The notes beneath the pieces are model-generated. The model made no database searches and was not told where the DNA came from. It saw only the letters and a program-made list of their open reading frames with translations. The translations under genes and the position numbers were made by a program. This document shows, piece by piece, positions 4,295 through 22,718 of a stretch of DNA of 64,000 nucleotides (positions within the stretch are counted from its first letter, which is position 1; every line of letters begins with the position of its first letter). The stretch lies in the NCBI GenBank assembly GCA_025617375.2, contig JAMYGW020000002.1:1054001-1118000 (forward strand), read 5' to 3'. This DNA is from Acarospora socialis (Eukaryota; Ascomycota; Lecanoromycetes; Acarosporales; Acarosporaceae).

Positions 4295-4978
4295 GATGCC
4301 TGATCTTTGTGGCTATCTTTTGTCTCTCATTATCTGTGTGCCTGTTCTTGCAAAGGGATGGTAGGTAAGTGAAGCTGTGTCTGTTAGTTTGAGCAGTAGC
4401 AAGTGGGGCCCTCTCAATGCCTCCATAACTTAGTCGTTCTAGTTCTAGCAGGATCCTGGTTTCTGGTTCTTATTAGAGTTTTGGTGATGGCCTGTGCACA
4501 TGGCAAGGAATGGCGGGGACGATTGAGTTCAGATATAACTCAACGATTCCAATCGGGTGATTAATTTTCAATTCGCAGACGCTGAGGAAGGACAATCAAT
4601 CACCTTATCGATACCTTAATTGATAAGAGTCCGCAACATGCAGATCACTGATGCTGGGTAATCGCAGTGTCTTTCATCTATGTGCACCCAAGTATCTTAC
4701 ACTTCTGTAGTCGAGATCGGTTGAGATTGGTCTTCGCTACGGCTGTGGGAGGTTAGACGGTCAATGTGTAGCCGATGAAAGATCTAAGGTAGATGGTGCA
4801 TTTACGATACCCAAGGTAGGCTCTGGCTAAATGACCTTGGCTTTTGGACATTAGCTGCAGGGCTAGAGAGATGACAACAATAATAGTACCATATCCCAGA
4901 GATACAGCCATAAGCCTACATGGAACGCGCTGTATTGTACGGCCACATTCAGTCTTGTCAGTTTACATAAATATATGT
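4295..4978. other. Intergenic, promoter side of the Pro/Ser-rich gene
   Basis: Normal base composition with CG, CC and GG present right up to the element boundary at 4978, so the mutation seen in the element has not spread out here. A GGTAGGTAAG motif near 4370 resembles the TAGGTA-type repeats seen elsewhere in the window. No gene is supported. Confidence 0.55.
4974..4978. repeat. Target-site duplication, left copy (TATGT)
   Basis: The 5 bp before the left LTR are TATGT, and the 5 bp after the right LTR (22714-22718) are also TATGT. A 5-bp duplication is standard for Ty1/copia integration and fixes both ends of the outer element. Confidence 0.9.
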
Positions 4979-5153
4979 TGTCAGAAATCCAGGCCTTATC
5001 CAGTAGAGATTCTCATAGAGTTTTAAGTCACATTCTCCAGTAGCCTATTTGAACTTAGTGATACACACCACATATCATGTAAATTAATTCTAGATACTCT
5101 AGATAATAATGACAATCAATATTACTCACATGCTTTGATCTTCAAGTCTGACA
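4979..5153 (+). repeat. Left LTR of the outer copia element
   Basis: 175 bp, TGTCA...TGACA. It aligns along its whole length, without gaps, with 22539-22713. Its outer (left) half keeps several CC and GG dinucleotides, while its inner half has mostly lost them. Confidence 0.92.
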
Positions 5154-6355
5154 GATTATAAACTCAAATTACATGTAAAACATTTGAAACAGTGAAGAAG
5201 AATCTTGTTGTTGCTGACATATGAAATTGTCATCAATATTCTAAGAAAAAGTGCAGACTCAACATAAAAACAGACACTCAGCTGTTCAAAAGTGTTATAG
5301 ACATCTGTGCAACATTCATATGAATAAGAATTGAAATAATGATCTCATAAACATCAAAATCACATTTAAAATCAAAAAATTTGTTCAGAAACACAACAAT
5401 TTTCAATTTTGATGATATCATCATACAAATTGAACACAATGTTGTCTTCAAATCTTTTTTTTTCATAAACTGTAAAACTGAAAGATTCAGCAGACTATTC
5501 AGCATAAAAAATATTGATTAAATACATCTTGATAAGCTTTAAACTATGAAATATAGTTAAAAAAATGAATTTAAAATCAAATCTGATGACAACAATTATA
5601 ATGTTAACAGTCTTAACATCAGACAGTACAACAGCTGCAGTGTTACAAATCACAGTTTTTAACTCAGTTCACAATGACTGAGTCAATAGAAACAACAAGA
5701 TCATGATCATCATCATTCTCAATGTTATCTTTAAAGTGACAATCATCATAAACAACATAAGAACTGCAAAAGAAATGTGAGAGCATCTGCATTTAATTTA
5801 TACTTCTTATAAATTTAATCTTCAGTATATTCTCTTTATCAATCTCTATGATTTCTGTTTGAATTAATTTGCATTAATTAATAATTATGTTCTCAAATAT
5901 AAGAGATTTCTGATCAAAATTGCAACATTTAATTTCATTATTAACAAAATTCTGAAGATCATTCTCTTTCTCATCAATCTAAAATTTTTTAACAATCAAT
6001 AAGTGACAGCAAAATGTTCTGCTGTCTGAATCATACTTTTTTTGCTTAATAGTTTAATTGCAAAACTTATTGATGAAGAACAGCTCAAAGAAGAAAACAA
6101 GAATCTGACTTTAATGAGAAAGTTCAAAGAAAAGAACAGAAATAAAAATGAAAAAAAAAATAAAAAATTGAAGAACAAGAAGAAAAATGTTGAAAAGAAC
6201 AAAGAAAAGAATGAAAAGTGCACACACTATAATAAGAAAGTTCATGCAGAACAGAACTGCTGACACAAATACTTTAACAAGATATTAAATGAAATTAAGA
6301 AGAAACAGAAAGTCAATAAGAAAAAGAGCTTGAATTTAAATAAAAAGTGTTGTTT
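5154..6355 (+). pseudogene. gag remnant of the outer copia element
   Basis: AT-rich fossil coding region on the plus strand. Near 6,216-6,265 it shows a retroviral-type zinc knuckle of the form C-x2-(C)-x4-H-x4-C embedded in a lysine-rich stretch, as in copia Gag. Sequence related to copia continues after the gypsy guest at 12,658. Broken by many breaks. Confidence 0.75.
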
Positions 6356-6753
6356 TGTTACAATCAAGTCAGAATAAGCTTGAGACAGATTGAAGAGTGT
6401 TACAATTAAGTCAGAATAAACTTAAAGCAAACTGATGCATATATGCAGAGAGTATACATTCAGAAAAATGTTTAAACAGCAGTTATGTGACATCTTAACA
6501 TGCTCAACATGCAAACAGTGAGCTGAACAAGCTGAAAACTCAATGTGCTCAATATGCTCAATAATAAAATCAGCAAGAGCTGACAAGCAGACTTACTATA
6601 TAGTAGAATTATTTTTCTTATGAAAACAATCATGTTCAACTTAAATAACTATCTAAAAGTTAAAGATCAGAATCATTTCAGATCAGCTGTTATATCAATA
6701 AGCACAAACTTTTAATTCTACATACTTGAGAAATCTCAGATTAAAATGTTACA
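6356..6753 (+). repeat. 5' LTR of the gypsy element
   Basis: 398 bp, TGTTAC...GTTACA, aligning without length change to 12260-12657. Differences are transitions. Within it an 18-20 bp segment ending in CAAGTCAGAATAAGCTTGA is imperfectly repeated about 45 bp apart. Confidence 0.9.
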
Positions 6754-9179
6754 CTTTGAACATTCTTATGATATAACAAGTATGATGTCTGACACACAGA
6801 AGAACATCTCAACTTTATTCTTGAAGTAAGTTCAGACAAATTTATCTTTATTATTTACTTTGAGTAGAATAATGACACAATCAGTGATGATGTTGATTCA
6901 TACTATACAATTATTCTTAAGTGCATCTAAGATACAGATATCAGATATCTTTAATAAAGAAAGAGAGAAGCTGCAAGTCTTTGTGATTAAACTCAATCTG
7001 TACATTGAATTCAATCAATTGAAGTTTTAAATCAATCAAGAAAAGACACTGTTTGCAATAATCTATCTTGTGAATGCAGTCTTTAACTGAATTAATTTCA
7101 AGCTGCATGAGTTTCTAGAAAAAAGATACAAAGAATGCAACACAGACACAAAATTTATGTTCAATGACTATGTACAGTTTAAAAAAAAGTTAAAAAAAGT
7201 CTTCAGAGTGATCAATGAAGAAAGAGCAGCTGAGAAATGAGTTTACATCTTGTAACAGAGTGAATCAGCAGCAATGTACATCACAGAGTTTCAGTGATTA
7301 GTGATACTTATCAGATAAGATAATGAAACACTTATCTATCAGTACTATTGTGAATTGAGAAAGTTCATCAAAGACAAGATAGTCTGAGCAGAACAATCAG
7401 ACAATCTTTAGAAAATGATTGATCTGAGTATCAATATCAATAGTTGTTAATGAAAATGACAGATAAAATGAAAAGAATATTGAATGTCATCTATGATAGA
7501 AGATCAAGAAGAAAGCTTTTGACTGTGAGTGAAGTGATATGTTTTATTGATAAGACATAGAAAGATGAACTCTATGAATCTCAATGTGATTGAGAAGTGT
7601 TGTTAGAAGTCATGAAAAACTAAACAAATGAAGTATGAATATCAGTCAGAGTGATTCACTAAGTCTTAAATAACACTGCAAAATGAAATGTGAATGTATT
7701 ACAACTGTAAAAAACTTGAACATCTTGTCTGAGAATGCAACAGATCTCAGATGAAAAGAAAGAATGTTGCAGTGACAATTAAGAAGAATACATGCATAGT
7801 GCATAACATTCTCAGCTAAACAGTCTGTTACAATGACATGTGCAGAGTACACATGAATGCAAAAGATAAAATCAAATGATATCTTCAGAAACTGTGCAAA
7901 GACATGAAGAACAGATATGATATGATGAGTTGATCAATCTACAAAAAAAAATTAGCTACTCTTATCAAAAAAGATGTTCTTGATGCTGAGAAAGAAAACA
8001 ATGTTCTTGAAGATGACATTAAAGAGACTGATAATTATGAATTTCAAATTGATGAATCTTAAATATTTTCTAATAGTGATACACTTGCAGAAGAAAGTTC
8101 AGATGATGTTGAGACAAAGTTTTTGAGAAAGTACTGAGCAAAGATCAAAAGAAATCTAAGTATTCAGAAAGAAACAACATCAGACTGCAATATAATGTAG
8201 AAGAAAGAGTAAAAAACTTGAAAACAGAAAGCAGAGATATGCAAAGAATTTGACAGTTTAATGAGAGATATACAAACAGTCACAAGAAAATCAATATCAA
8301 AATCTCTTGTGTGAAAAATCAAAAGTCACAAGATTGAGATATACTTATCTGAAGAATATATCACACAAAATAAAGACAAATGAATCTTCAGCAAAGAATA
8401 TATATCATTTGAATTTCTGCAAAGAGTAAAAATCTTTGAGAGTCAGTTGCAGATAAAGTATGATCAATATAAACTCTGACTACACTCAGAAAGACACATT
8501 GAGCAACACAGTCTAGAGTATGTGAATCTTATGATTGAAAGAAAATCAAGATGATTTTAAGAACTTTGAAGATGAGTCAAACAACTGAGTGAGTCAAAAA
8601 ACAAAAAACTCTCTCAACAAGACTAGAGAACAAGAAGCTAGTGATGTCTTAAAGACAAGACAATAATCATCAGATATGAATTAAGATTATAATTAATGAA
8701 CACTGAATCAATGCATTGATGAATTCTGAAGTAAACAAAAACATTATGAATCAGAAAACAGTCAACATGTTGAGATTAGAGACATGACAAGTGCACTGTT
8801 TATTCAACATATAAATGACAAATGAAGTCATCAAAAGAATTGATGAGAAAATCTATGTGAAAGTCTCAATTCTTGAAAACTCACAAGAGATAATGTTTAA
8901 TGTTATAAAATCAATTGAATACAACACAGTACTAAAGATGCTCTGATTGTGCAGAAAAAATCTGAAGATTGATTGAGTTATGAAAGAAATATATGTGATT
9001 AAAGACACATACAAGATTCTCAAACAATCAGAGATGAGCTTATCAGAATATAAGTCATGAAATCATGAAATATCACTATTGAATGAAAAGCAATCTAAGT
9101 GAATGTCATTATACTCAATGAGCAAAAATCAACTCAAGAAAATTAGAACTTATCTTGATGAAAATCTCAAGAAAAAATT

Positions 9180-9720
9180 CATAAAATCATCAAAGTCATC
9201 AGCAGAATATCTGATTCTGTTTATATCAAAGAAGAATGACAAAAAATGACTATATGTTGACTACAGACAACTCAACAAGATAACTTATTAAGATAGTTAT
9301 TCTTTACTGCTGATAGAAGAGTTGCAAAACTGATTAGATAAGACTAAATGATTCACAAGTTTAGATCTCAAAGACATTTACTACTGAGTCAGAATGAAAG
9401 AAAACAAAGAGTAAAAGACAGCATTCTAAACAAGATACAGACATTATAAATACACTGTCATGTCATTCAGACTAAAAAATGCATCAGTTATCTTTCAGAG
9501 ATTAATTAATGACATATTAAGAGAATATCTCAATGATTTTGTAATCACATATCTGAATGACATTCTGATATACTCAGAAGATCTTGAGAAGCACTGTGAA
9601 CATGTGTGCAAGATATTAGCAAAGCTCAATGAGAAAGCTCTGTATGTGAAAAAGTCAAAAAGCAGATTTAAAATCAAGAAAATTAAGTTTCTAAACTATG
9701 TAATTTGATCTGAACAAATC
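9180..9720 (+). pseudogene. Reverse transcriptase remnant of the gypsy element
   Basis: The best preserved coding stretch of the block: an open frame of 82 aa at 9460-9708 reads as the gypsy palm region, starting MSFRLKNAS and containing YLNDILIYS at the catalytic YxDD position. It is followed by RNase H-like sequence. A fossil with many breaks. Confidence 0.85.
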
Positions 9721-11539
9721 AAGAAGAATTTAAAGAAGATAAAAGCAGTCAGAAACTGATCAACATTAAAATGAATCAAGAAAGTATAGATCTTTCTAGA
9801 ATTAATGAACTATTATTGAAAGTTTGTATCAAACTATGCAAAGATTGCAGAATCACTGATGCATTTAACACACAAAAACAAAAAATAACACTGAGATCAA
9901 GAACAGAAGAATGCATTTCACATATTAAAGAGAAGTTTTAGTGAAACAGCACATCTGAGAATACTCAACTCAGCATACAAGAAAACACTGAAAACTGATG
10001 CTTCAAATTTTGCAGTGAGAGCATATTTATATCAAATTGAGAATGAGCAGCAGAGATTCATAACATATCAGTTTAGAAAACTATCAGAATTCAAGAAAAA
10101 ATACAAGATTCACAACAAAAAACTTCTTACAATAGTAAAAGCACTACAGAATTGAAGATCTTATCTTGCAGAAATGAATAAGTCAATTTAGATCTATATG
10201 AATCATAAGAATCTGAGAAACTTCATAATGACAAAATAACTCAATCAATGACAGATTCATTGAACAGAGCAGTTAGCAGACTATGAATTTCAGATTTATT
10301 ACAAGAAGAGTAATAAAAATAATGAAGCAAATGTTTTGAGCAGATAATCTGATCATGAAGATGTACAGACAATATATATTGAAATTTTCAGTGAAGACAA
10401 TAAAGAAATTCTCATGAAGAACTTAGCAGCAACATACAAAATGAAGCAAGCTTTCTTGACAGACAAAGAACTCATTAAGATGTGTCACTACAGCAGAGTT
10501 GATGAACATCTAAAAATTAAGTGCACTGAGAATCTAGTGCAAAGAAGACACAACATTAGTGATTTTAGAAATCAAATCATCAAGATGATCACTGTGTGCA
10601 ATTCATGCTGAAAAAACAAGATCAATTAAAATAAACAATATGATGAAGTAATGTGACTAAACACATCAGATGCACTGTGAAAGTCAGTTATCATGAACTT
10701 CATTATGAAGCTATCATTATTAAAGAATTCAGCATGAAAAGTGAGATTTAACAGTATATTGACAATAGTGAATAGATTAATCAAGTACACAATGTTCATT
10801 TCATTCAAAGAAACTGCAACAGCATCAGTATTGATGTACATCATACTGCAAGAATTGATTAACAATTACAGACTATTAAAGAAGTTTATCACTGACAGAG
10901 ACAAACTGTTTATAAGCAAGTTTTGAGAAACATTCACAGCAGAACTCAGAATAAAACATAAAATGTTGACAGCATATTATTCACAGATGAATGAGCAGAA
11001 CAAATGAATGAATCAGTCAGTAAAAATGTACTTGAGACACTATGTCAACAAGAGTCAAGATAACTGAGTACAACTGTTGTCAACAGCACAGTTTGCATAC
11101 AACAATGCAAGAAACAAAATCACAAAAAAAACATCTTTCTATATGAATTATGACTACAATTCAGAGATATGATGAGATCTCAGAGAATATGAATCATGAA
11201 GTCAAAAAGTGATTTTGAATATTGCTCAGATGAAAAAACTGTATTAAGATCTAACAAAACAGATCAAACAGCAGATGAAATGAACAACAGAAGCAAAATC
11301 ATTCAAAGAAGAAGAAAAAATATACTTAAAAATAAATAATATAAAAACTAAAGAAAAAAACAAGAAGCTGAAAAACAAGAGCATTGAATCATTCAAGATC
11401 ATATGAAACATCAAAGAGTTAAGCTATGAGTTAAACTTACTCAAGAAGATAAGAATACACTCAATATTTCATGCATTTATGCTACAGCATTGTGATCAGT
11501 TCATATTACTTCAAATCACTGAAACATTTGTCAAATTCA

Positions 11540-11700
11540 AAAAAGAATATGAAGTCAAGAACATCTTAGAGAAGAGAATGATTAGTGAGAAAGCTCACTA
11601 TTTCATTAAATGAAAAGATTACAATATCTCAGAAAATATCTGAAAATCCAAAGAGAATTTCAAGAACTGCACAAGAATGCTTCAATGTTTTGAGAAAGAA
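11540..11700 (+). pseudogene. Chromodomain remnant of the gypsy element
   Basis: After the integrase and a segment resembling the 'IHSIFHAFMLQ' linker of chromoviruses, the frame shows EYEVKNIL and further aromatic residues spaced as in a chromodomain. In the family this domain reads histone marks and steers integration to heterochromatin. Confidence 0.75.
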
Positions 11701-11761
11701 GATTGACATTGATATTAACTCAGAAGAATGATGACATCAAGTCAATAAGTTATAACATTGT

Positions 11762-12181
11762 TTAAGAATCTTCATTCTCAGTTTCATCATTATCACTATC
11801 AAGTTCAGCAGCAAAACAGTCAGTCTTCTGTGCAGCACAACAATCTATTTGATTTAGAGTTTTCTGAAGATGCATGACTTTTGAGAAAAGTGTGACAAGC
11901 TCAGTGTGCTTAGTTGTCAAGACATTGTTTGTCTTACTCACTTCTTTCATTGTCTTTGATATTTTCTTTCAAAGCAAAATACAAGTTCTGTTGAGAAACT
12001 TTCACAATACATTAATACACAGATGATCATGACAAGTATACTTATTACATTTCAATCAAGATTTCATTACAAAACAATCAAGATCACAAGAGACACAGTG
12101 ATCACAGAAAAATGAGATTAAGATGTCATCAAGTTGAATTTTCTTTGTGATTCTTAGATAATTGAAATTTTTAGAAAGCAT
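11762..12181 (-). pseudogene. Antisense Cys-rich/coiled-coil reading frame inside the gypsy element
   Basis: Between the chromodomain and the 3' LTR, the minus strand carries a separate coding-like track starting near 12181. It has a short N-terminus, then LDDILIS followed by clustered cysteines (C-x2-C-x2-C-x3-C, then FVMK, then further Cys), then a coiled-coil segment and an acidic Asp/Glu tail ending at 11762. The layout resembles the many short fungal proteins with DILIS, clustered Cys and FVMKG motifs that are commonly annotated next to gypsy elements. That link comes from memory of the family and was not searched. Function unknown. Broken here. Confidence 0.6.
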
Positions 12182-12259
12182 TGTCACTGATGATGAACAA
12201 TGTGAATACTCTCACTTATATAGATTCTAGAGAACTAGCATCTGAAAAGAAAAGAATAG

Positions 12260-12657
12260 TGTTATGATCAAGTCAGAATGAGCTTGAAGCAGATTGAAGA
12301 GTGTTATGATTAAGCTGAAATGAGCTTGAAACAAACTGATGCATACATGCAGAGAGTATACATTCAGAGAGATGTTTAGACAGCAGTCACATAATATTTC
12401 AATGTGCTCAACATGCAGATGATGAGCTGAGTGAGTTGAGAACTTGATGTGCTCAATATGCTTGACAATGAAATCAGCAAGAGCTGACAAGCAGACTTAC
12501 TATATAGTAGAATTGTTTTTCTTATGAAAATGATCATGTTCAACTTAAATAACTATTTAAGAGTTAAAAACCAGAACTGTTTCAGACCAGCTGTTATATC
12601 AATAAGCACAAACTCTTAGCTTTACATACTTGAGAAATCTCAGATTAGAACATTACA
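12260..12657 (+). repeat. 3' LTR of the gypsy element
   Basis: 398 bp copy of 6356-6753. It keeps slightly more G and C than the left copy and has a few surviving CC dinucleotides near 12,570-12,590. Confidence 0.9.
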
Positions 12658-13478
12658 TATTTCAACAAAGACTTGCTCATTCTGATGACAATCATCACTG
12701 TTTTTGTTATCAATGAATTGTCATGACTGACTGATTTCACAGCTATACAGCATATATACTGTGACTGTTCTATGTTTTTAACAATTAAGATGCTCAAAGA
12801 TAAATCAACAAATATTCACAGTATCAGAATCATTAAACTACAACTGAAACACAAAAATGACAGTGAGTTTCATCAAATCATCTTAATAGATGTCTACTTC
12901 ATGTCAAATATTGATCTCAATCTCTTCTTGATAGAAATAGTCAAATTGAAAGATATATTTGTTGAAATTCATGAAGAAATACTACAACTAAAGAATAAGA
13001 TGAAAGAAACAGTTAAATATGCATATAAATCAGACAAGCTGTACTATTTACAGATTTTGACAGATAAGTATATTTTCTTTGAGCAAGAGACATTGTCAGT
13101 CATTGATAACAACAAGATATCACAAGTCACATGATATTAACACTTTGAATATCTAGAAGATTCAAATCTTAAATGTGTATTTAAGAACTCAGACATCAAC
13201 AGCATTGATTTACACAGATTTGCAGATAAATTATCTTATTTATGCAACATCTGTTTAATGACAAATCAGAAACAACAGCTGTTCAAGCTTTTTCAATGAT
13301 GAGTTATCAAAGTGATTGAACTTGTTCATATTGACATCATTAATCTCATTACACTAAAAGCATTTGACAAATCAACATGATTTATAATTTTTATGAATGA
13401 CTATTTCTGCTAATAATACATTTACAACATAAAGATTAAAGATCAGATCAAAGATAAAATTGTATACTTTATTAATAT
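12658..13478 (+). pseudogene. Protease/integrase remnant of the outer copia element, first part
   Basis: Resumes copia sequence after the gypsy guest. The open frame 12772-13134 matches the copia segment between protease and integrase (a 'FMSNIDLNLF' block like the LYVPxLxxNL motif). It is followed by integrase zinc-finger and catalytic-core-like sequence up to about 13,440, where the antisense copia guest interrupts it. Fossil. Confidence 0.78.
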
Positions 13479-13685
13479 TGAGAGATAAAAAAATACTTGT
13501 ACTATACTGCTGACTAACTGTCTATCTAGTGAAACATACATCATTAATTTGATTATGATTGACATAAGTTGTAAAGATTGTCTATTCACATACTCTGTCA
13601 CACAGACTATATGAGTAATAAGTAATCTTTGATGTTAATTTCAACTAAGATTATGAAAGCAGTTAAAACATCATACTTCTCAATA
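13479..13685 (-). repeat. Outermost 3' LTR copy of the antisense copia element
   Basis: 207 bp beginning TGAGAGATAA on the plus strand. It aligns with 14247-14453 and 19491-19697. Confidence 0.88.
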
Positions 13686-14246
13686 TTTTTACTCAGTGAT
13701 GCTGCATCTATTGACTTTTATTAACAGTAAGTCTCAGTTGTACAACAAAGTGCTTAAAGATTCATTTAAATAAGAACTTAATTAGTTTATCAGTCATTAT
13801 GTCTTGACTAAACACAAAGTTCACATCAATTTGATTTTGCTTGTGCAGATTACAAATATGATGATAGACAATGTTAATGTGCTTTGATCACTCATGCACA
13901 TGTGCATTCTTAATTAAAGTTAAAATAATCTGATTGTCTTTCTTGAACTGAAGAAATGAGACTGCTTAATGAACTTTATTCTTCTTGATGTTTACATAAT
14001 ATAAATTATTTTCAAAATACTTACTTATATTCATGTCTTACAGCATCTGTGTAAGTCAGATCTCAGTTTTTGCATATATTGACATAATTATGTATTCAGT
14101 CTCTGTAATTGAGATGATAATAGATTTCTGCTTTTAACTTATTCATAATATTGATTTATCTTCAAGCATGTATACATGTTTCAGAATTAACTTTCAATCT
14201 TGTTTGTCTGATGCATAATTGAAGTTAAAATATTTAAGTATGATAT
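13686..14246 (-). repeat. Duplicate of the 3' internal end of the antisense copia element
   Basis: 561 bp that repeat 14454 to about 15,014 (RNase H end and 3' untranslated part), so LTR plus internal end form a 768-bp tandem unit at 13479-14246 and again from 14247. Differences between copies are transitions. Confidence 0.85.
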
Positions 14247-14453
14247 TGAGAAATAAATGAATACTCATGCTATACTGCTGACTAACTGTCTATTTAGTGA
14301 AACATACACTATTAACTTGACTGTGATCAATGTAAGTTGTAAAGATTGTCAATTCACATGCTCTGTCACACAGACTATATGAATAATAAGTAATTTCTGA
14401 CATTAGTTTCAACTAAGACTATGAAAGCAACTAGAATACTGCACTTCTCAACA
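14247..14453 (-). repeat. Middle LTR copy of the antisense copia element
   Basis: 207 bp, TGAGAAATAA...TCTCAACA. This is the LTR that directly abuts the main internal region, so it is the expected 3' LTR of the original insertion. Confidence 0.88.
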
Positions 14454-17400
14454 TTTTTACTTGATGATGTTGCATTTATTGATTTTCATTAACAGTAAGT
14501 TTCAGTTGTTCAACAAAGTGCTTAAAGATTTATTTAAATAAAAACTTAATTAATTCATCAGTCATCATGTCTTGACTGAACACAAAGTTCACATCAATTT
14601 GATTTTGCTTGTGCAGATTATGAATATGATGATAGACAATATTAATATACTTTAATTACTCATACACATGTATATTCTTAATCAAAATCAAAACAGTCTG
14701 ATTGTTTTTCTTGAGCTGAAGAAATAAGACTGCTCAATGAACTTTATTTTTCTTGATGTTCACACAGTATAAATTATCTTTAAAATACTTGTCTATATTC
14801 ATGTCTTGCAGTATCTGTGTAAGTCAGATCTTAGTTTTTGCACATATTGACATGATTATATATTCAGTCTCTGTAATTAAGATAATAATAGACTTCTGTT
14901 TTTAATTTGTTTATAACATTGATTTATTTTTAAACATATATATATATTTCAGAATTAATTTTCAATCTTGCTTGTCTAATGCATAATTGAAGTCAGAATA
15001 TTTAAGCATGACTTAACTTTCACTGAGTTCATACACAATGTTAAAATTGATGATTAATCTCATATATTGCAACAGTTTCTTAAACATATGTTCATGATGT
15101 TCTGCAGAATTACTAAGATATTAATTTAATTAATTTAGAATAAAGATGATGTTCAGTTAAGTATGAATCACTGTGTACATTAGATTTTCAATTGCATGTT
15201 AATACTGTCTTTAATCTATTCTTTGATCAGCTGAGTTGATGAAACAAAAAGTATTATATTTATTGAGTAAAATCATCATGATCTTGTGCTTATCAAACTG
15301 CATATAAAGATTTCTCAGCATCTTATTTACATAGTGAGTCTGATTTAAATGTAGAGTTCTTCTCTTGCAGTCATGTGTGACTTATATGTTAAGAATTTTC
15401 TGTGTCTCTTTTAAGTTCTTAACTTTGAACATTTTCACAAGAACTTTCTTGAATCAGAAAATGTGTATCAAACTTGTTGAAACTATAATTATATTATTCA
15501 CATAGAGAAGTAACATGATTCTTTTGATGCTGTTGATGAGAAAACATAAATTAATATTGCTTTAATGAAAATTTAATTTGTGCAGATCAGTGATACATCA
15601 TTTATATCAGTTTTGTGCAACTTACTTCAGATCATAAAAACTATGCAATATATACAGTACACAGTCAGATGCAATTTGAACTTCAGAAGAGACTGTTATG
15701 TAGATGATCTTTTTAAAAAAGAATTTTGTGAAAATATTGTTGATATTTATTTAATAATATTCAAGATTTTTAAGAACAATGATGACAAGAAAGATTCAAA
15801 GAGTGTTGAACTTAACTGTAAATGTGAAGATGTTCTCATAATTAATGTTATACATCTGTGAGAAATCTCTCATCATAATTTTTGTCTTAAACTTGTTCAG
15901 AAATTCATCAGTGTTCAGTTTAAGTTTAAATATTCATTTATTGATCACTATATTTGTGTTCTTTGATGACACAATCTTTTTTTATGTTTTATTGACTGTC
16001 AGAGTCATCAATTCTGCATGAATAACATTTTTTTACATCTTTTTTCAAACTGAGTCTCTCACTGCTTCAGCATAGATGACAGACATGAGAATGTTAAATT
16101 TAATATTTTTAGTGTTTTTTTCATTATCTGTGATGAACACTGTGAATATCAACATAATTCATAATATTTTAATCATGAACTCATCAAAGTCTTTATTATT
16201 GTTGTTCTGTTTTCTCTTCAAAATCTCAACACACAAGAATATCTTGACTTTTTCAGTTAAAATGTTCAGTGCTTTGCTGACAAAAACTTCAATATGTAAG
16301 AACTACTTAATCTCATTCTGTTTATTTGTTTGTGATTTGTTTAAATTAACTGCAGTTAATTTATTCATTATATGAATGTCTGATGAAAATGTATTGAGAT
16401 TATCTGTAATTAATTTAAACTCTTTTTTGTTATTTAAATTCATAAATCTAAATCTGTAAATTTGTTTAGAGACAGTAGACAGAGTTGTAGATACTGTGAG
16501 ATTTGTGATGACTACATTTTTTTATGATTATTCAACTGACTTTTGTTCAGACAGAATATTCAGTATTTATTTTTGCAGTTTGAAATCAACACTATTTTTC
16601 TTCTCATTCTCAACAAACTTCACAACATAACTCTTAATGATCTGCTTAAGATCTGAAATTTAAAGCAGATATTGATTTGTAATTTTATTTGCATAATTTA
16701 TGAAAATTTTCACTCATTCTTAATTCATGAACTTATTCTGTCTGTTCTTCAATAATGATTTGAGATCAACATAGAAGTAGCATTTGCAATCTTAAATACA
16801 AATATAATCAATGAATAACTACACATCAATGAAAATCTTCTTTAAAATTATTTATCTATCATTAATCAAGAGATCAGTTGCTGTTCAGTTACAAAAATAA
16901 ACATTTATTTGTGCTATTTTTGTTCAAAACTTTATTGAAAGTTCTGTCTTCTTAATTATGATGTACACTGAATTCTCAGTGATATAGATGATTTTTTCAG
17001 CAATATTATTCTGAATAAACATATAAAACACAGTGTACTGTGATGTAATGTTAAAAAATCTACATCAGTCATTCAGAATTGATTTTAACTCTATAATATT
17101 GTCACTCTGTACAGTAAGCACTCTTGTATTGATTTGAAGCTCAATTTTTAATTGTTATTTTTGCAGTTTCTATAAAACATTATTGCATTACTTCAGTGAT
17201 ATTATTTATGTCTTTTAAGAGTAGTTGTTCACAATCTTCAAAAAATACTGATGTTTGACAAATAACAGAGATAAGAAACTGCATATATCAATGAAAATTA
17301 AAACAAAAATGTTGATCTTCTGCTCACTTACAGTATGCTTTTGCTGATTGATAAATTTAATAATGACACAAACTTTACATACATTCTTCTTGTTTTCAGC

Positions 17401-19490
17401 AATGAAAATTAATTTCTCAAAAATTATAACTTTATAAAGATTGCAGAGCTTTGCAGAGTCAAGATAAACAAATTGTTAATGTCACAGCTTGTAGATCTTA
17501 ATCTTTTCACTTAAAAATAAAATATCAACAAAAAATGAAGTGTCAGCAGAACTTAATGAATCAATCTGTGTCTAAGAGTTTACATTCAGTACTGTGACTG
17601 AAAGAGTCATCTCTGAATTAAATAATATATGTATAACAGATAACAGAATGAACATGTTCAGTTTTTTCACAATGTGTTTAACTATATAGACACTGTCTTA
17701 CTCAGACACTTCTATTATGACATTATCATATTTATTTTACATATAAAGACTGTGCTGATCAAAGATTTTCTGCAATTTCATTTTACATATTTACTTTCTT
17801 AATAAAAGATTAACTTCTAGTTCAGACACATAAAGTGTTGAACTTAAATTTATTCTGAATCTGTTTTGCATCATAGTTACTTCACAGTAGTGAGAGTATA
17901 AGTATTTTTTTTCAACTTTAATTCTTTAACATCATATGCATATTAAAGAATCACTGAAGAGTTAATGTTGATTAATTATGTGTGTGAAGCATTTAGAATT
18001 TGCAACTCATTTAAAGCTGAATATTTTATTGACAACTTTCTTAAACAAAGTGACAATCTCATTGTCTTTCTCTGCATCAAACTCAGATAAAAATGAATCA
18101 TTATTGTTTTCAGTCTCAGCATCAAAAACTCTATGCTTTCTGTTTTTGTGTTTGAACTCTATTTTGTTTTTATGATGTAAATTATCTGCAAATAACTTAT
18201 TTAACTTTCTGACTAACTTAACTGCAGTTAAAATAGATAATTTTCTTAACTTAATGTTTTTGTAAGTAGCAGAAAGATATTCACAGTCTTAAATATGATG
18301 AGAATTATAACAGAGAAAATATTTAACTGATTTATGCTAAGAAGAACAGTCATTGTCAAAACTTGATAATCTTCAATAATGATATCTCACATTATACTGA
18401 TATAAGTGTGTCAAATTTTTCTCTTTGTGTTGATCTGTTCATAAGACAATCTCAATAATCTTTAATTGTAATTTTTTCTCTTAAAGCTTCTGCAGACTTC
18501 TCTTGATGTTTAAGATGTCTTGAATATTAATGATGTTATAGATCATTATGTAGTTCTCAGATAATGCTTAAAGAAATATTTAAAATTATTACTCAAACTT
18601 GAATAGATCAATCATATTAAACTGAGTTGCAGCAATCTTTTTGTTCAGCTTACTGAGATGTGTTTATACTTTATTGATAAATACATTTGTCAATATTCTG
18701 TATTCAATAAATTTCATTAAATATTGTTTTTTAATGATCTGCAGCTTCTTCTTATATTTGAACTTTAAGATATTTCAAATGTTCTTTATGTTGATTTTAT
18801 CTGCAATATACTTTTAATCATCTGTACTGATATAGATGATGAGTCAGTACAGAGTTTTTGTGTTAAACTTTTAATTTTCAAAGTCAAAATTACTGAATAA
18901 AAAGAAGAAGTCATTAACAGAAGTATTGATTACTGAGATTTCAACAATATATCATAGATCTTCATTTATTAGTCATTTTCTTATGAAAGTAAATCATTGA
19001 TTGTAGTTCTTGCAACTGAGAATTGAGATAAGTTATTGCTTCATGAAAGAGTTATTGAAATTTATAATGTAACTTTTGACAGTAGTCAGCACATAATATA
19101 AAAAATGAATAAAATGAAGTATTAAGATGTACAAAAGAAGATAATGTAAATAAAAGAAAGAAGAAGTGTGTGTACTTATTTATTTAACTATTGAGCACTG
19201 TATTAAGTTGTCAGTAAGTTTTGTTTTACTCAAACTTAAAGCTCTGTATTGAGTGTCAAGAATGTTGTTTTGTTTAATTTTTGAGTTTCATATTGACAGC
19301 TAAGAATGCTTGTTTTAATTCTGTATCAAGCTGTCAAGAATGTTGTTTTGCTCAATTTTAAAGCTTTATATCAATGATTAGTAATGCTTGTTTTGCTTAA
19401 TCTTTAAGTTCTCATATCAAGCTATCAAGACACTAAAACAGTATGCACTTTCTTTAAAAAGCTTCTTGCTAATCTGAATTTATAATTTAT

Positions 19491-19697
19491 TGAGAAATAA
19501 AAGAATACTCATACTATACTGCTGACTAACTATTTATCTAATGAAACATACACTGTCAACTTAATCATAATTGACATGAATTGTAGAAATTATCTATTCA
19601 CATACTCTGTCACACAGACTATATGAGTAATGAGTAATCTTTGATGCTAGTTTCAACTAAGACTATAAAAGCAGTTAGAACACCATACTTCTTAACA
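19491..19697 (-). repeat. 5' LTR of the antisense copia element
   Basis: 207 bp, TGAGAAATAA...TTCTTAACA on the plus strand, followed by ATTAATAT, which also precedes the leftmost LTR copy. Confidence 0.88.
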
Positions 19698-22538
19698 ATT
19701 AATATAATTTATACACAGATGCATAGAATTGTCAAATGTATATGAATTGACAATGACAAGAAGTTTGAAGATTAAGCTCTTATTGACTGACTACAAAATC
19801 ACAGTATAAGCTACAAAACTATCATTTCTTATGAACTGAAACAAAACAATATCATCAAACAAAACAACAGTTTACTGACTGAAAAGACTAGAGCTATAAT
19901 AATTGACAGTGAAGTATCACACAACTTGTGATTAAAAGCAGTTAAGACTGCTTGTTATTTACTGAATAAATTATCAATCTTAGCAATAAAGAATAACAAA
20001 GTTTCATTTTAATTACTCTACAAATCACTCAATAACAACAGTACAGTTAACTAAATCAATCTTGAACATGTATAATTCTTCAGATGCATCACATACATGT
20101 ATATTTTTAAAGAGAAACAACATTAAGATGTTAAATTTAAAACATAAAGCAACAAAAACATATTGATAAACTATGAAAAACATAATCAGTATAGAATCTG
20201 ATTGTTGAAGAAAGAAAAAAAAGTAAAGTGATTAGAATCTGAGATGTTTAATTTGATGAAGAACTCAGAATTTATGACTTGAATATAAATTTTAAATTAC
20301 TCAATGCTTTCAACTCTAAATTCTCTGTGACACAAATTAATGATTCTGACTCTAGAAAGTCAATGAATAATGTAATGAGTATAGAGTAAAAAAACATAAA
20401 CAATAGTACTCTGCACTTATTTTGTGCACATTAATCTCTTATATATTAATCACAAGCTTTTCATCTTGCACATCAGACACAAGCATTATTGATACTGACA
20501 CATTTGTTTTTTATGTTCAGCATGAAAAGTTTCTCATCTTTATACAAATCACTGTATATATCTTCAAACAAGATATCTTGATCAGAGAAGTACAACAAGA
20601 AGTTCAATAATAAGATGAAGAATGAGAAGAAGAACATAATAAAGTAATAATTATCAATTAATGTGTCAACATTACTGAGACACTCAGACAGAAAACAAAA
20701 AAAGCTCTTAAGATTTAGTTCTAAAATCATTGTTGTCTTGTTTACTGTTCATGATGTATTTTTTGATGCTGCTGTCATTAATATTATAAAAGAGTATAAA
20801 CTTGAATCTCAGTCAGACAGCAAACTCAGCATTTATTATAAGACTGTTGCAAACTTCAGTTTTAAGCACTGAAAATAGATTATAAACAACAAATTTAAGT
20901 TTTTGAAAGTTAATTTGACCTAAAATCTAATGATATTATCTCTGAATTGCTGCACTCTACATGAAAAGTGAGTTTATTGTTACAAACATGATTTTGATGA
21001 CACAATGACACAATTATATAATATAAAACATGATGAGTTGTCAAAGACTTTGAACAATGTTTCAACATCAATTACAATAAGACATTTATTATCATCATCA
21101 AGTTCATAATCTACAAAGTCATCTTTGTCATTGCTGCATACTATGATTACAAGTTGAAACAAATGAATATCAAGATGATATTCTTGCACAGTGATTTGAA
21201 AAAGATAATGTATATGATACAATTCATTAAATATGAAAAAAAAAAAAGATGTGCAGACTGAAGAAAGTCTTATATAAATTAAAACAGTCTTTTCATCTAT
21301 GATATAAAATCATGCACAAGTTTCTTACTGACAATAACTATACACATCTTTATACAGATAATAGTGTGTTTTTAATCAGCAATCTCATCATTATTATCTA
21401 TATTGACAACATTTTGATGTGTGAATCAAGTAAGAAAGTAATTTGCAATTTAAAGATTAAATTAAGCAGTCAGTTCAAAATAATGAACTGTAGAATATGT
21501 AAGTATTACTTAAATATGTAAATAATACACAATAAAACTCATTAAACTCTCACTCTGTCATAAAAAATTTATTTTAAAAAAATGTTTATCAAATTTAATC
21601 TCAGCAACACAAAATCAGTTCTGACTTCTATGAATTCTGATATATATTTGATACAAATTAAGAAATTCTTTACTTCACAGTTAATACAATGATATCAGTG
21701 TACTATAAATTTTCTCATGTACACAATGATTCAGATGTGTTCTGATATCATTTTTGTAATATTAATATTCAGTCAGTTTTCACACAATTCTGATGAGATG
21801 TATTGAAAGATCTTGAAGTGAGTATTCTGCTACATATATGATACTTTTAATGTTACTGTTAAATACAAATTGAACTTAGATTATCTTCAATTTTTAAAGT
21901 ATTCAAACTTGAATTGAAATGAAGATCTTGAAACAAGAAGATCTACAATTAACTATGTATTTCAGCTAACAAATGAGTTAGTTTTTTAATGTTCAAAACA
22001 TCAAAAAACAGTCACTCTGTTTTTTATAAAGATAGAATACATGATTGCAACAAAAACAATCAAGAAAGTTATCTGAATGTGAAAACTATTATAAGAGATG
22101 AAACTTAAAGAATTTAACACAGTATTTATTCAAATAAATAATACAGAGACTATAGTCTTGATCAAGAATTCTGAGTTTTACATTCATACAAAGTATATTG
22201 ACATATATCATCATTATATACAGAAAGTTAAATTGCAGAATCTTATTCATCTTAATTACATTCTCATCAGCAACATATTTATCAACAGACTTACTAAGTC
22301 ACTTTTTATCATCAAATTCACACACTTTATTGATCTTATTGATCTTATCTGTCACTAAAGATTCTGTGATTTATATGAAAGAATATTGAGTCATCATTTG
22401 ATGAACTTCAATAAAATGTGTTCAAATTGTGTCAGAATCAATTGAATCTTTGTGATAAACTGAGTGATTTATTGTAAAGATTCATTCTTTTTGCTCTTCT
22501 TATCTATCTCACTGTTGCTGAAACAGTCTGAGAAAATG
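19698..22538 (+). pseudogene. Integrase end, linker, reverse transcriptase and RNase H remnants of the outer copia element
   Basis: The integrase similarity that stopped at about 13,440 resumes at once after the guest (about 19,706-20,000). Reverse transcriptase is visible at about 21,250-21,520 (the block YIDNILM at the catalytic site and QFKIMNCRICKYYLNM after it). RNase H is seen at about 22,098-22,330 (the HTKYIDIYHHYI block). The linker between 20.1 and 20.9 kb is low complexity. Fossil. Confidence 0.82.
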
Positions 22539-22713
22539 TGTCAAAAATTCAGGTCTTATTCAGTAGAAATTCTCATAGAGTTTTAAGTCATGTTCTTCAG
22601 TAGTCTATTTGGGCTTAGTGGTGCACACCACATATCATGTAAATTAATTCTAGATACTCTAGATAATAATGACAACCAATACTACCCGCATGCTTTGACC
22701 TCCAAGCCTGACA
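22539..22713 (+). repeat. Right LTR of the outer copia element
   Basis: 175 bp, TGTCA...TGACA. Its outer (right) part still holds CCCGC, GGGC and CCAAGCC, while its inner part has lost such dinucleotides. This is the mirror image of the left LTR. Confidence 0.92.
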
Positions 22714-22718
22714 TATGT
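22714..22718. repeat. Target-site duplication, right copy (TATGT)
   Basis: Identical to 4974-4978; marks the right end of the outer copia insertion. Confidence 0.9.

Follow-up and report, generated by a model that had tools for sequence, protein, structure and literature searches.

The retrotransposon block and its composition

We analysed a 64,000-nucleotide stretch of the genome of Acarospora socialis (assembly GCA_025617375.2, contig JAMYGW020000002.1; C2:1054001-1118000 in a 31.1-Mb genome of 38 contigs), hereafter the window, which harbors at its positions 5154-22538 a retrotransposon block that an earlier note, made from the sequence alone, had singled out for an unusual pattern of cytosine loss. 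The retrotransposon identity is borne out, but not that of a single element, as the block consists of three nested long terminal repeat (LTR) retrotransposons, an outer element X with the elements Y and Z inside it (Table 1). X is slightly larger than 5154-22538, because its outer LTRs and the TATGT target-site duplication lie beyond these positions. Insert-free copies of X, which span about 5.3 kb, are also present at L022 and L023.

Table 1. Features of the block in window coordinates
Feature	Coordinates	Strand	Basis	Remarks
Hypermutated tract	5070..22551	.	Dinucleotide counts and shuffles	No CG, no GG, five CC
TATGT target-site duplication	4974..4978; second copy 22714-22718	+	Direct sequence reading	
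5' LTR of X	4979..5153	+		Outer, Copia-type element; outer part of LTR retains CC/GG, inner part (from about LTR position 73) without
X interior, segment 1	5154..6355	+	Similarity to other X copies	
Nested LTR element Y	6356..12657	.		LTRs about 6356-6755 and 12260-12657; ends TGTTT/TATTT; orientation not firm
X interior, segment 2	12658..13475	+	Similarity to other X copies	
Nested element Z	13476..19698	-	RVT_2 match 15301-15981, minus strand	Copia-type; ends approximate
Repeats of Z	13475-15011 (tandem copy)			Tandem copy of about 770 bp; about 205 bp at both ends of Z
X interior, segment 3	19699..22538	+	RVT_2 matches 21016-21243 and 21234-21632	
3' LTR of X	22539..22713	+		Roughly mirrors 5' LTR: inner part mutated, outer mostly retained

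Dinucleotide counts over the 17,385 bp of the block confirm the initial impression that CG and GG are nearly absent and CC reduced to a handful, with CA, TG, CT and AG abundant. There is no CG, no GG and only five CC (at 11648, 12571, 12587, 19683 and 20919), against 328, 333 and 323, respectively, expected from base composition, and the minima reached in 200 base shuffles were 280, 295 and 279. The GC dinucleotide is unremarkable (344 versus 328 expected), and the observed/expected (O/E) ratios of CA, TG, CT and AG are 1.55, 1.58, 1.18 and 1.21; the TA/AT index is 0.71, the (CA+TG)/(AC+GT) index 1.56 and the GC content 27.5%. The 5-kb and 41-kb flanks are both normal, with 51% GC and O/E of 0.91-0.96 for CC, GG and CG, and the longest run without any of these three dinucleotides, 7,096 bp in the block, is only 106 bp outside 5000-22700. 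The shuffles and the normal flanks exclude a composition artefact. The abundance of CA and CT masks a real, slower C-to-T change at CpA and CpT.

Two of the leftover CC, at 12571 and 12587, sit in an LTR of element Y. The leftover sites look non-random, since the same places retain CC in several of the other Y copies compared there (L016, L019, L027, L067, L020 and L029).

Cytosine context of the changes among repeat copies

The comparison with other repeats covered part of those in the genome, namely X, Y, Z and sampled Copia and long interspersed nuclear element (LINE) loci. Twenty regions were fetched around other X LTRs, a non-random sample in that they were chosen for carrying these LTRs. 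Nineteen of them (from 12 places, of which seven are represented by two halves) are AT-rich, all with O/E of at most 0.03 for CG, 0.06 for CC and 0.08 for GG. The twentieth, L032, is a lone LTR, GC-normal on both sides, which retains most of its CC and GG; this is compatible with repeat-induced point mutation (RIP), which acts before meiosis and requires RID as well as a duplication above a length threshold. Ten further loci were sampled via Copia reverse transcriptase matches, and five of these (L044, L045, L047, L049 and L052) carry at most three CG, CC or GG dinucleotides per 3.7 kb, L050 and L051 carry 8 and 26, L046 and L048 carry more (L048 extends beyond its block), and L043 is near normal. 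The last, a Copia-type locus at C2:447002-447721 with one stop in the match and CG, CC and GG at O/E 0.83-1.05, is apparently untouched.

The LTR pair of X in the window differs at 20 positions, all transitions, in agreement with the earlier estimate of about 20 transitions mostly at a C before C or G. Fourteen lie at such a C in the less mutated copy, two make up a single CA/TG swap and four are at CpT or CpA; in CC pairs, it is the first C that is changed. As the outer LTR parts are less mutated than the inner ones, a single X element offers two states of the same 175 bp for comparison, and T is found at 5/6 and 8/10 of the sites with C before C and at 1/2 of those with C before G, against 1/8 and 1/18 with C before A and 2/14 and 1/12 with C before T. 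Inside the tract, T occupies 5/174 LTR CpA sites and 17/187 CpT sites, and outside it 0/183 and 9/187.

A LINE family allows the changes to be polarised. Nine of its copies are nearly identical and have open frames of 576-1,329 aa; in one of them, L036, a stop separates the endonuclease part from the reverse transcriptase part. Twelve of 151 RVT_1 matches were compared with nine of the ten loci returned, omitting the tenth, L033, which is a different element. Relative to the nearest long-frame copy, C-to-T changes are seen at 157/956 CpC, 24/100 CpG, 37/3,043 CpA and 14/2,317 CpT sites, a per-site rate at CpC 13 times that at CpA. The CpA and CpT figures are near background, since reverse T-to-C changes (6-8 per copy; in total 48 giving CpT, 23 CpA, 12 CpC and 1 CpG) are comparable in number. 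When each column is counted once, with columns lacking C in all nine reference copies omitted, T is seen at 47/66 CpC, 5/6 CpG, 17/244 CpA and 8/182 CpT. The nine reference copies (L034-L042; C1:2.65-2.80 Mb, C8, C10 and C14, the long-frame copies being clustered in few places) are themselves nearly CG-free (O/E 0.05-0.07) with about 80-110 each of CC and GG per 3.75 kb; the family may have lost its CpG while staying active.

The relative of Z at L046 represents an intermediate state (O/E of CG 0.08, CC 0.65 and GG 0.68), from which the Z of the window differs by 24 transversions over 2,954 sites. At cytosines of L046, the Z of the window has T at 124/138 CpC, 6/8 CpG, 265/646 CpA and 181/441 CpT sites; where the next base is unchanged, these become 72/72, 2/2, 205/581 and 163/418. 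CpA and CpT are therefore slow rather than immune targets, with 35-39% of them changed in this inner element.

Saturated copies give a different picture when compared naively. Among eight X segments (the window and seven other X copies), the single differences over the 28 pairs are for the most part C/T before A (1,605) and before T (1,598), besides 641 TG/CA doubles and 419 transversions, and such a comparison misleads because almost no CpC or CpG remains to differ. The differences at CpA and CpT oppose a rule confined to CpG and CpC (CpS), and follow-up showed that they reflect real change at a lower rate: in the eight copies, minor T makes up about 15% at CpA and 19% at CpT, both low estimates, since columns in which T is the majority base (13/143 CpA and 32/146 CpT) are omitted. 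The polarised copies give an order of C-to-T change by 3' base of CpG > CpC >> CpT = CpA. The proposal that the mutated cytosines are those followed by C or G therefore stands for the main context, and is too strict if read as only those, because CpA and CpT also change at a lower rate. The different context preference put forward earlier is likewise upheld, since neither of the two outcomes named there as refuting it was observed: CA and TG are not depleted like CC and GG, and the LINE, LTR and Z-relative comparisons all single out CpC and CpG over CpA as the principal context of mutation.

Stops within the broken RVT_1 matches listed are mostly TGA (judged by eye, untallied), as would follow from CpG and GpG change in CGA and TGG codons; the Copia matches also have many TAA. 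A SNF2-type helicase match near a contig end (G000:C5:7965-9047), with nine TGA and one TAA stops, resembles what a duplicated helicase gene would become under this mutational system. At L069:1938-3020, 595 positions of the small-subunit rRNA model are matched over 1,083 bp, a surplus that suggests inserted introns.

Candidate enzymes and the limits of the tract

Three methyltransferase genes with PF00145 were found in the genome, among them relatives of both RID/Masc1 and DIM-2, the homologues to which the earlier note had pointed, and also a DNMT5-like gene. The methyltransferases and the other genes have, in our reading, the character of a filamentous ascomycete. The DIM-2-like gene (C3:855595) scores 642 bits over a long similarity to the solved enzyme 9bap_A (1456 aa; listed as DNA (cytosine-5-)-methyltransferase), which we take to be DIM-2. 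At the putative DNMT5-like gene (C8:614409), PF00145 is accompanied by a sub-threshold IBR match and, 2.5 kb downstream on the same strand, by an SNF2 match (C8:617422); in DNMT5, RING-like and SNF2 domains follow the methyltransferase domain. The RID/Masc1-like gene (C2:1420221-1421136) matches PF00145 only at 2-160 and 253-324, in two frames, and its protein has SPPCQ (a PPCQ motif); it is placed in this class by the partial PF00145 and the motif, not by comparison with RID sequences. The RID/Masc1 class is described as having PF00145 with a part missing (PMC4352252, cited, like the published systems below, from excerpts), and the excerpt of PMC8016269 states that activity data for the RID or Masc1 enzyme are not available.

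We favor, as the probable explanation, a RIP-type genome defence with a reversed 3'-base preference, for which an enzyme of the C5-methyltransferase family is the likeliest agent. Such a defence would act on either strand of dispersed repeats, changing C to T in the order CpG > CpC >> CpT = CpA, and repeated exposure would saturate old elements until almost no CG, CC or GG were left. CpA and CpT would be converted only in part, which would explain why the GC content halts near 27% and CA and TG stay high. A single enzyme with an altered 3'-base readout would presumably serve both contexts, the RID/Masc1-like protein being the first candidate and the DIM-2-like protein the second, and would plausibly act in the sexual cycle.

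The mutated tract has sharp edges, which lie inside the X LTRs. Just outside X, in the first 100 bp of 17 flanks, CC and GG are intact (O/E 1.05 and 1.0). Among 25 LTR copies, eight 5' and nine 3' LTRs could be classed by their flanks, the other eight not being assignable to a side. In the 5' LTRs, CC at positions 11, 16, 22, 59 and 66 is kept in 35/40 cells (three mutated, two other), and GG at 74 and 82 in 0/16. The 3' LTRs mirror this, with none of the CC at 11-66 kept and GG at 73, 74 and 82 kept in 21/27 (five mutated, one other), so that both classes place the mutation step between positions 66 and 73. The exceptions are GG at 28, kept in 4/8 5' LTRs, and GG at 14 and 48, kept in 2/9 and 3/9 3' LTRs; CC at 90 is mixed (kept in 5/8 5' and 5/9 3' LTRs).

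This arrangement suggests that the tract is limited to the transcribed part of X, and raises the bolder idea that mutation is coupled to transcription or to the extent of the transcript, the tract reaching from where the transcript begins in the 5' LTR to where it stops in the 3' LTR. A CpS mutator with a tract set by transcription in cis, not by DNA homology, would spare the U3 of the 5' LTR and the U5 of the 3' LTR. At the common step, sites 59 and 66 are kept in 13/16 cases in 5' LTRs and 0/18 in 3' LTRs, and sites 73, 74 and 82 in 2/24 and 21/27, respectively; since similar sequence escapes in one LTR and is mutated in the opposite one, the choice of LTR sites must depend on more than their sequence. 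Furthermore, the extent of an LTR transcript would give a shared edge coordinate, which a symmetric edge effect would not. However, the spared ends measure about 70 and 100 bp and could reflect edge effects coinciding by chance, the GG at 28 and the CC at 90 do not fit, and element Y, nested in mutated DNA, is uninformative on the edge. As the evidence comes from one family whose copies may share history, we keep this as a bold reading, unlikely on present grounds, and not as a conclusion.

The LTRs also bear on the possibility, raised in the earlier note, that two processes overlap, a loss of methylated CpG across repeats (perhaps with DNMT5-like maintenance) and a separate, RIP-like activity directed at CpC. 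CpG sites are mostly lost in the LTRs on both sides, and even in the outer parts, where CC is mostly kept, CpG is mutated in 12/16 cases at two sites of the 5' LTRs and in 7/9 at one site of the 3' LTRs. That CpG goes first is seen also in L046, as well as in the LINE family, almost free of CpG while retaining many CC and GG, and a DNMT5-like gene is present. However, a single enzyme faster on CpG than on CpC gives the same pattern, and CpG in the flanks is only slightly low in the first 100 bp (O/E 0.60 versus 0.67-0.78 further out). We regard two processes as possible, though doubtful.

A readout of the 3' base is easier to reconcile with the C5-methyltransferase family than with AID/APOBEC enzymes, which are known for a 5'-neighbour preference and a one-strand bias. 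At CpC targets, the 5' base has an about twofold effect (T 0.21, G 0.19, C 0.18 and A 0.10). The second 3' base matters more (A 0.20, T 0.16, C 0.06 and G 0/12). Editing of the elements by an AID/APOBEC-like or other cytidine deaminase, possibly during reverse transcription, could be entertained in view of seven PF00383 matches in the genome, the likeness to APOBEC3G, which causes C-to-T hypermutation of retroelements at CC, and a modest strand imbalance of the LINE CpC changes. Such editing is nonetheless highly improbable, as it is the first C of CC that changes, set by its 3' neighbour, CC and GG are both lost, CpC changes occur on both strands in 11/12 LINE copies, and each LTR of an element is mutated in the part that the other LTR has spared, which editing of cDNA would not give. 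Thus, neither hallmark of the AID/APOBEC enzymes was found here, apart from the imbalance noted.

Several points weigh against a RIP-type defence with a reversed preference. CpG loss runs ahead of CpC loss, as two separate processes would also have it, and some differences among saturated copies fall at CpA and CpT. The LINE CpC changes are uneven between strands (87 non-coding and 39 coding, the latter strand carrying about 109 GG and 83 CC over 3.75 kb), and their polarity assumes that the long-frame copies are nearer the ancestor; related copies also share some mutations, which makes p-values from this comparison no more than a guide. A stop near one LTR position on both sides is not predicted by plain homology-directed RIP. 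Finally, we infer the link between enzyme and mutation, and action in the sexual phase is assumed.

Were a defence of this type confirmed, the almost complete conversion of CpC in old elements would mean that its 3' readout can be turned round, and the fungus would offer a natural contrast for locating the residues of RID or DIM-2 that set this readout. The sharp LTR edges, in turn, allow homology and transcription targeting to be tested against each other.

Relation to RIP and other known systems

C-to-T change on both strands, its restriction to repeats with single-copy neighbours spared, and a RID homologue in the genome are as expected of RIP; CpA as the preferred site is not found. With thresholds of >1.15 for the product, <=0.75 for the substrate and >0 for the composite index (PMC7882544), all 20 blocks fail all three (TpA/ApT 0.56-0.84, substrate 1.37-1.80, composite -0.53 to -1.24), and so do the normal flanks of the window, with composite values of -0.41 and -0.51. 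Classical RIP directed at CpA, or a misreading of mere AT-rich composition, could be argued from the RID-like and DIM-2-like genes and the CpA changes at a lower rate. It is ruled out by the indices and by the sets of polarised copies compared here, with a CA/TG excess in all 20 blocks alongside the low TpA/ApT and the predominance of CpC over CpA in the LINE copies, and together with the base shuffles these leave it scarcely any probability. We therefore read the blocks as RIP-like repeat mutation with a changed context preference, which fails the CpA test for Neurospora-type RIP. Standard RIP tests would overlook such blocks because the usual preference is reversed, and surveys may miss such species, as these blocks come out negative on indices built on TpA gain and CpA loss.

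A close parallel is the RID-dependent RIP of Neurospora crassa, which shares C-to-T change on both strands of repeats, the sparing of single-copy neighbours, and genes of the RID/Masc1 and DIM-2 types. Its order of preference is CpA>CpT>CpG>CpC (PMC5496416), whereas here CpC is near the top and CpA and CpT at the bottom, no leak into the flanks is seen and the indices fail. In Trichoderma reesei, CpG is among the preferred contexts, as here, but CpC is the least used (PMC5496416). CpC loss in itself is not new: repeats of Stagonospora nodorum show depletion of CpC, GpG and further dinucleotides under a CpA-dominant RIP (PMC2621366), and CpC to TpT double changes are described in Monilinia (PMC8959702). 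CpC is overrepresented in PMC12774611 and is among the contexts scored in PMC4522978 and PMC3017866, whereas CPC has another meaning in PMC11185503. In the open-access library searched, no paper on CpC to TpC as repeat-induced point mutation was found; an earlier report of a CpC preference is possible.

For Rhizoctonia solani AG8, where C/T hypermutation occurs between nuclei, Table 2 of PMC4014442 gives CpC the closest spacing of changes among the four contexts (CpC 214 bp genome-wide and 301 bp in repeats; CpG 370 and 583); unlike here, this fungus is a basidiomycete, genes and repeats are affected alike, the changes are far from saturation and the authors call them CpG-biased (PMC4014442). 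CpG-biased repeat mutation is known (PMC2621366, PMC4014442), and Microbotryum, Tuber, the MATE element of A. nidulans and Coccidioides resemble the present case in a strong loss of CpG from repeats, though CpG is lost there alone or with CpA. The Dim2-dependent mitotic C-to-T mutation of Zymoseptoria tritici is alike in the DIM-2 family and the targeting of repeats, but is CA-specific (PMC8016269). A survey of ten genomes ties species-specific CpA, CpT and CpG signatures to classes of methyltransferases (PMC4352252); its excerpt has no CpC signature, nor the term CpC, unlike the present blocks. In a lichen fungus with strong RIP, most sequence derived from transposable elements has 10-20% GC (PMC12542154), whereas the present block stops at 27.5%.

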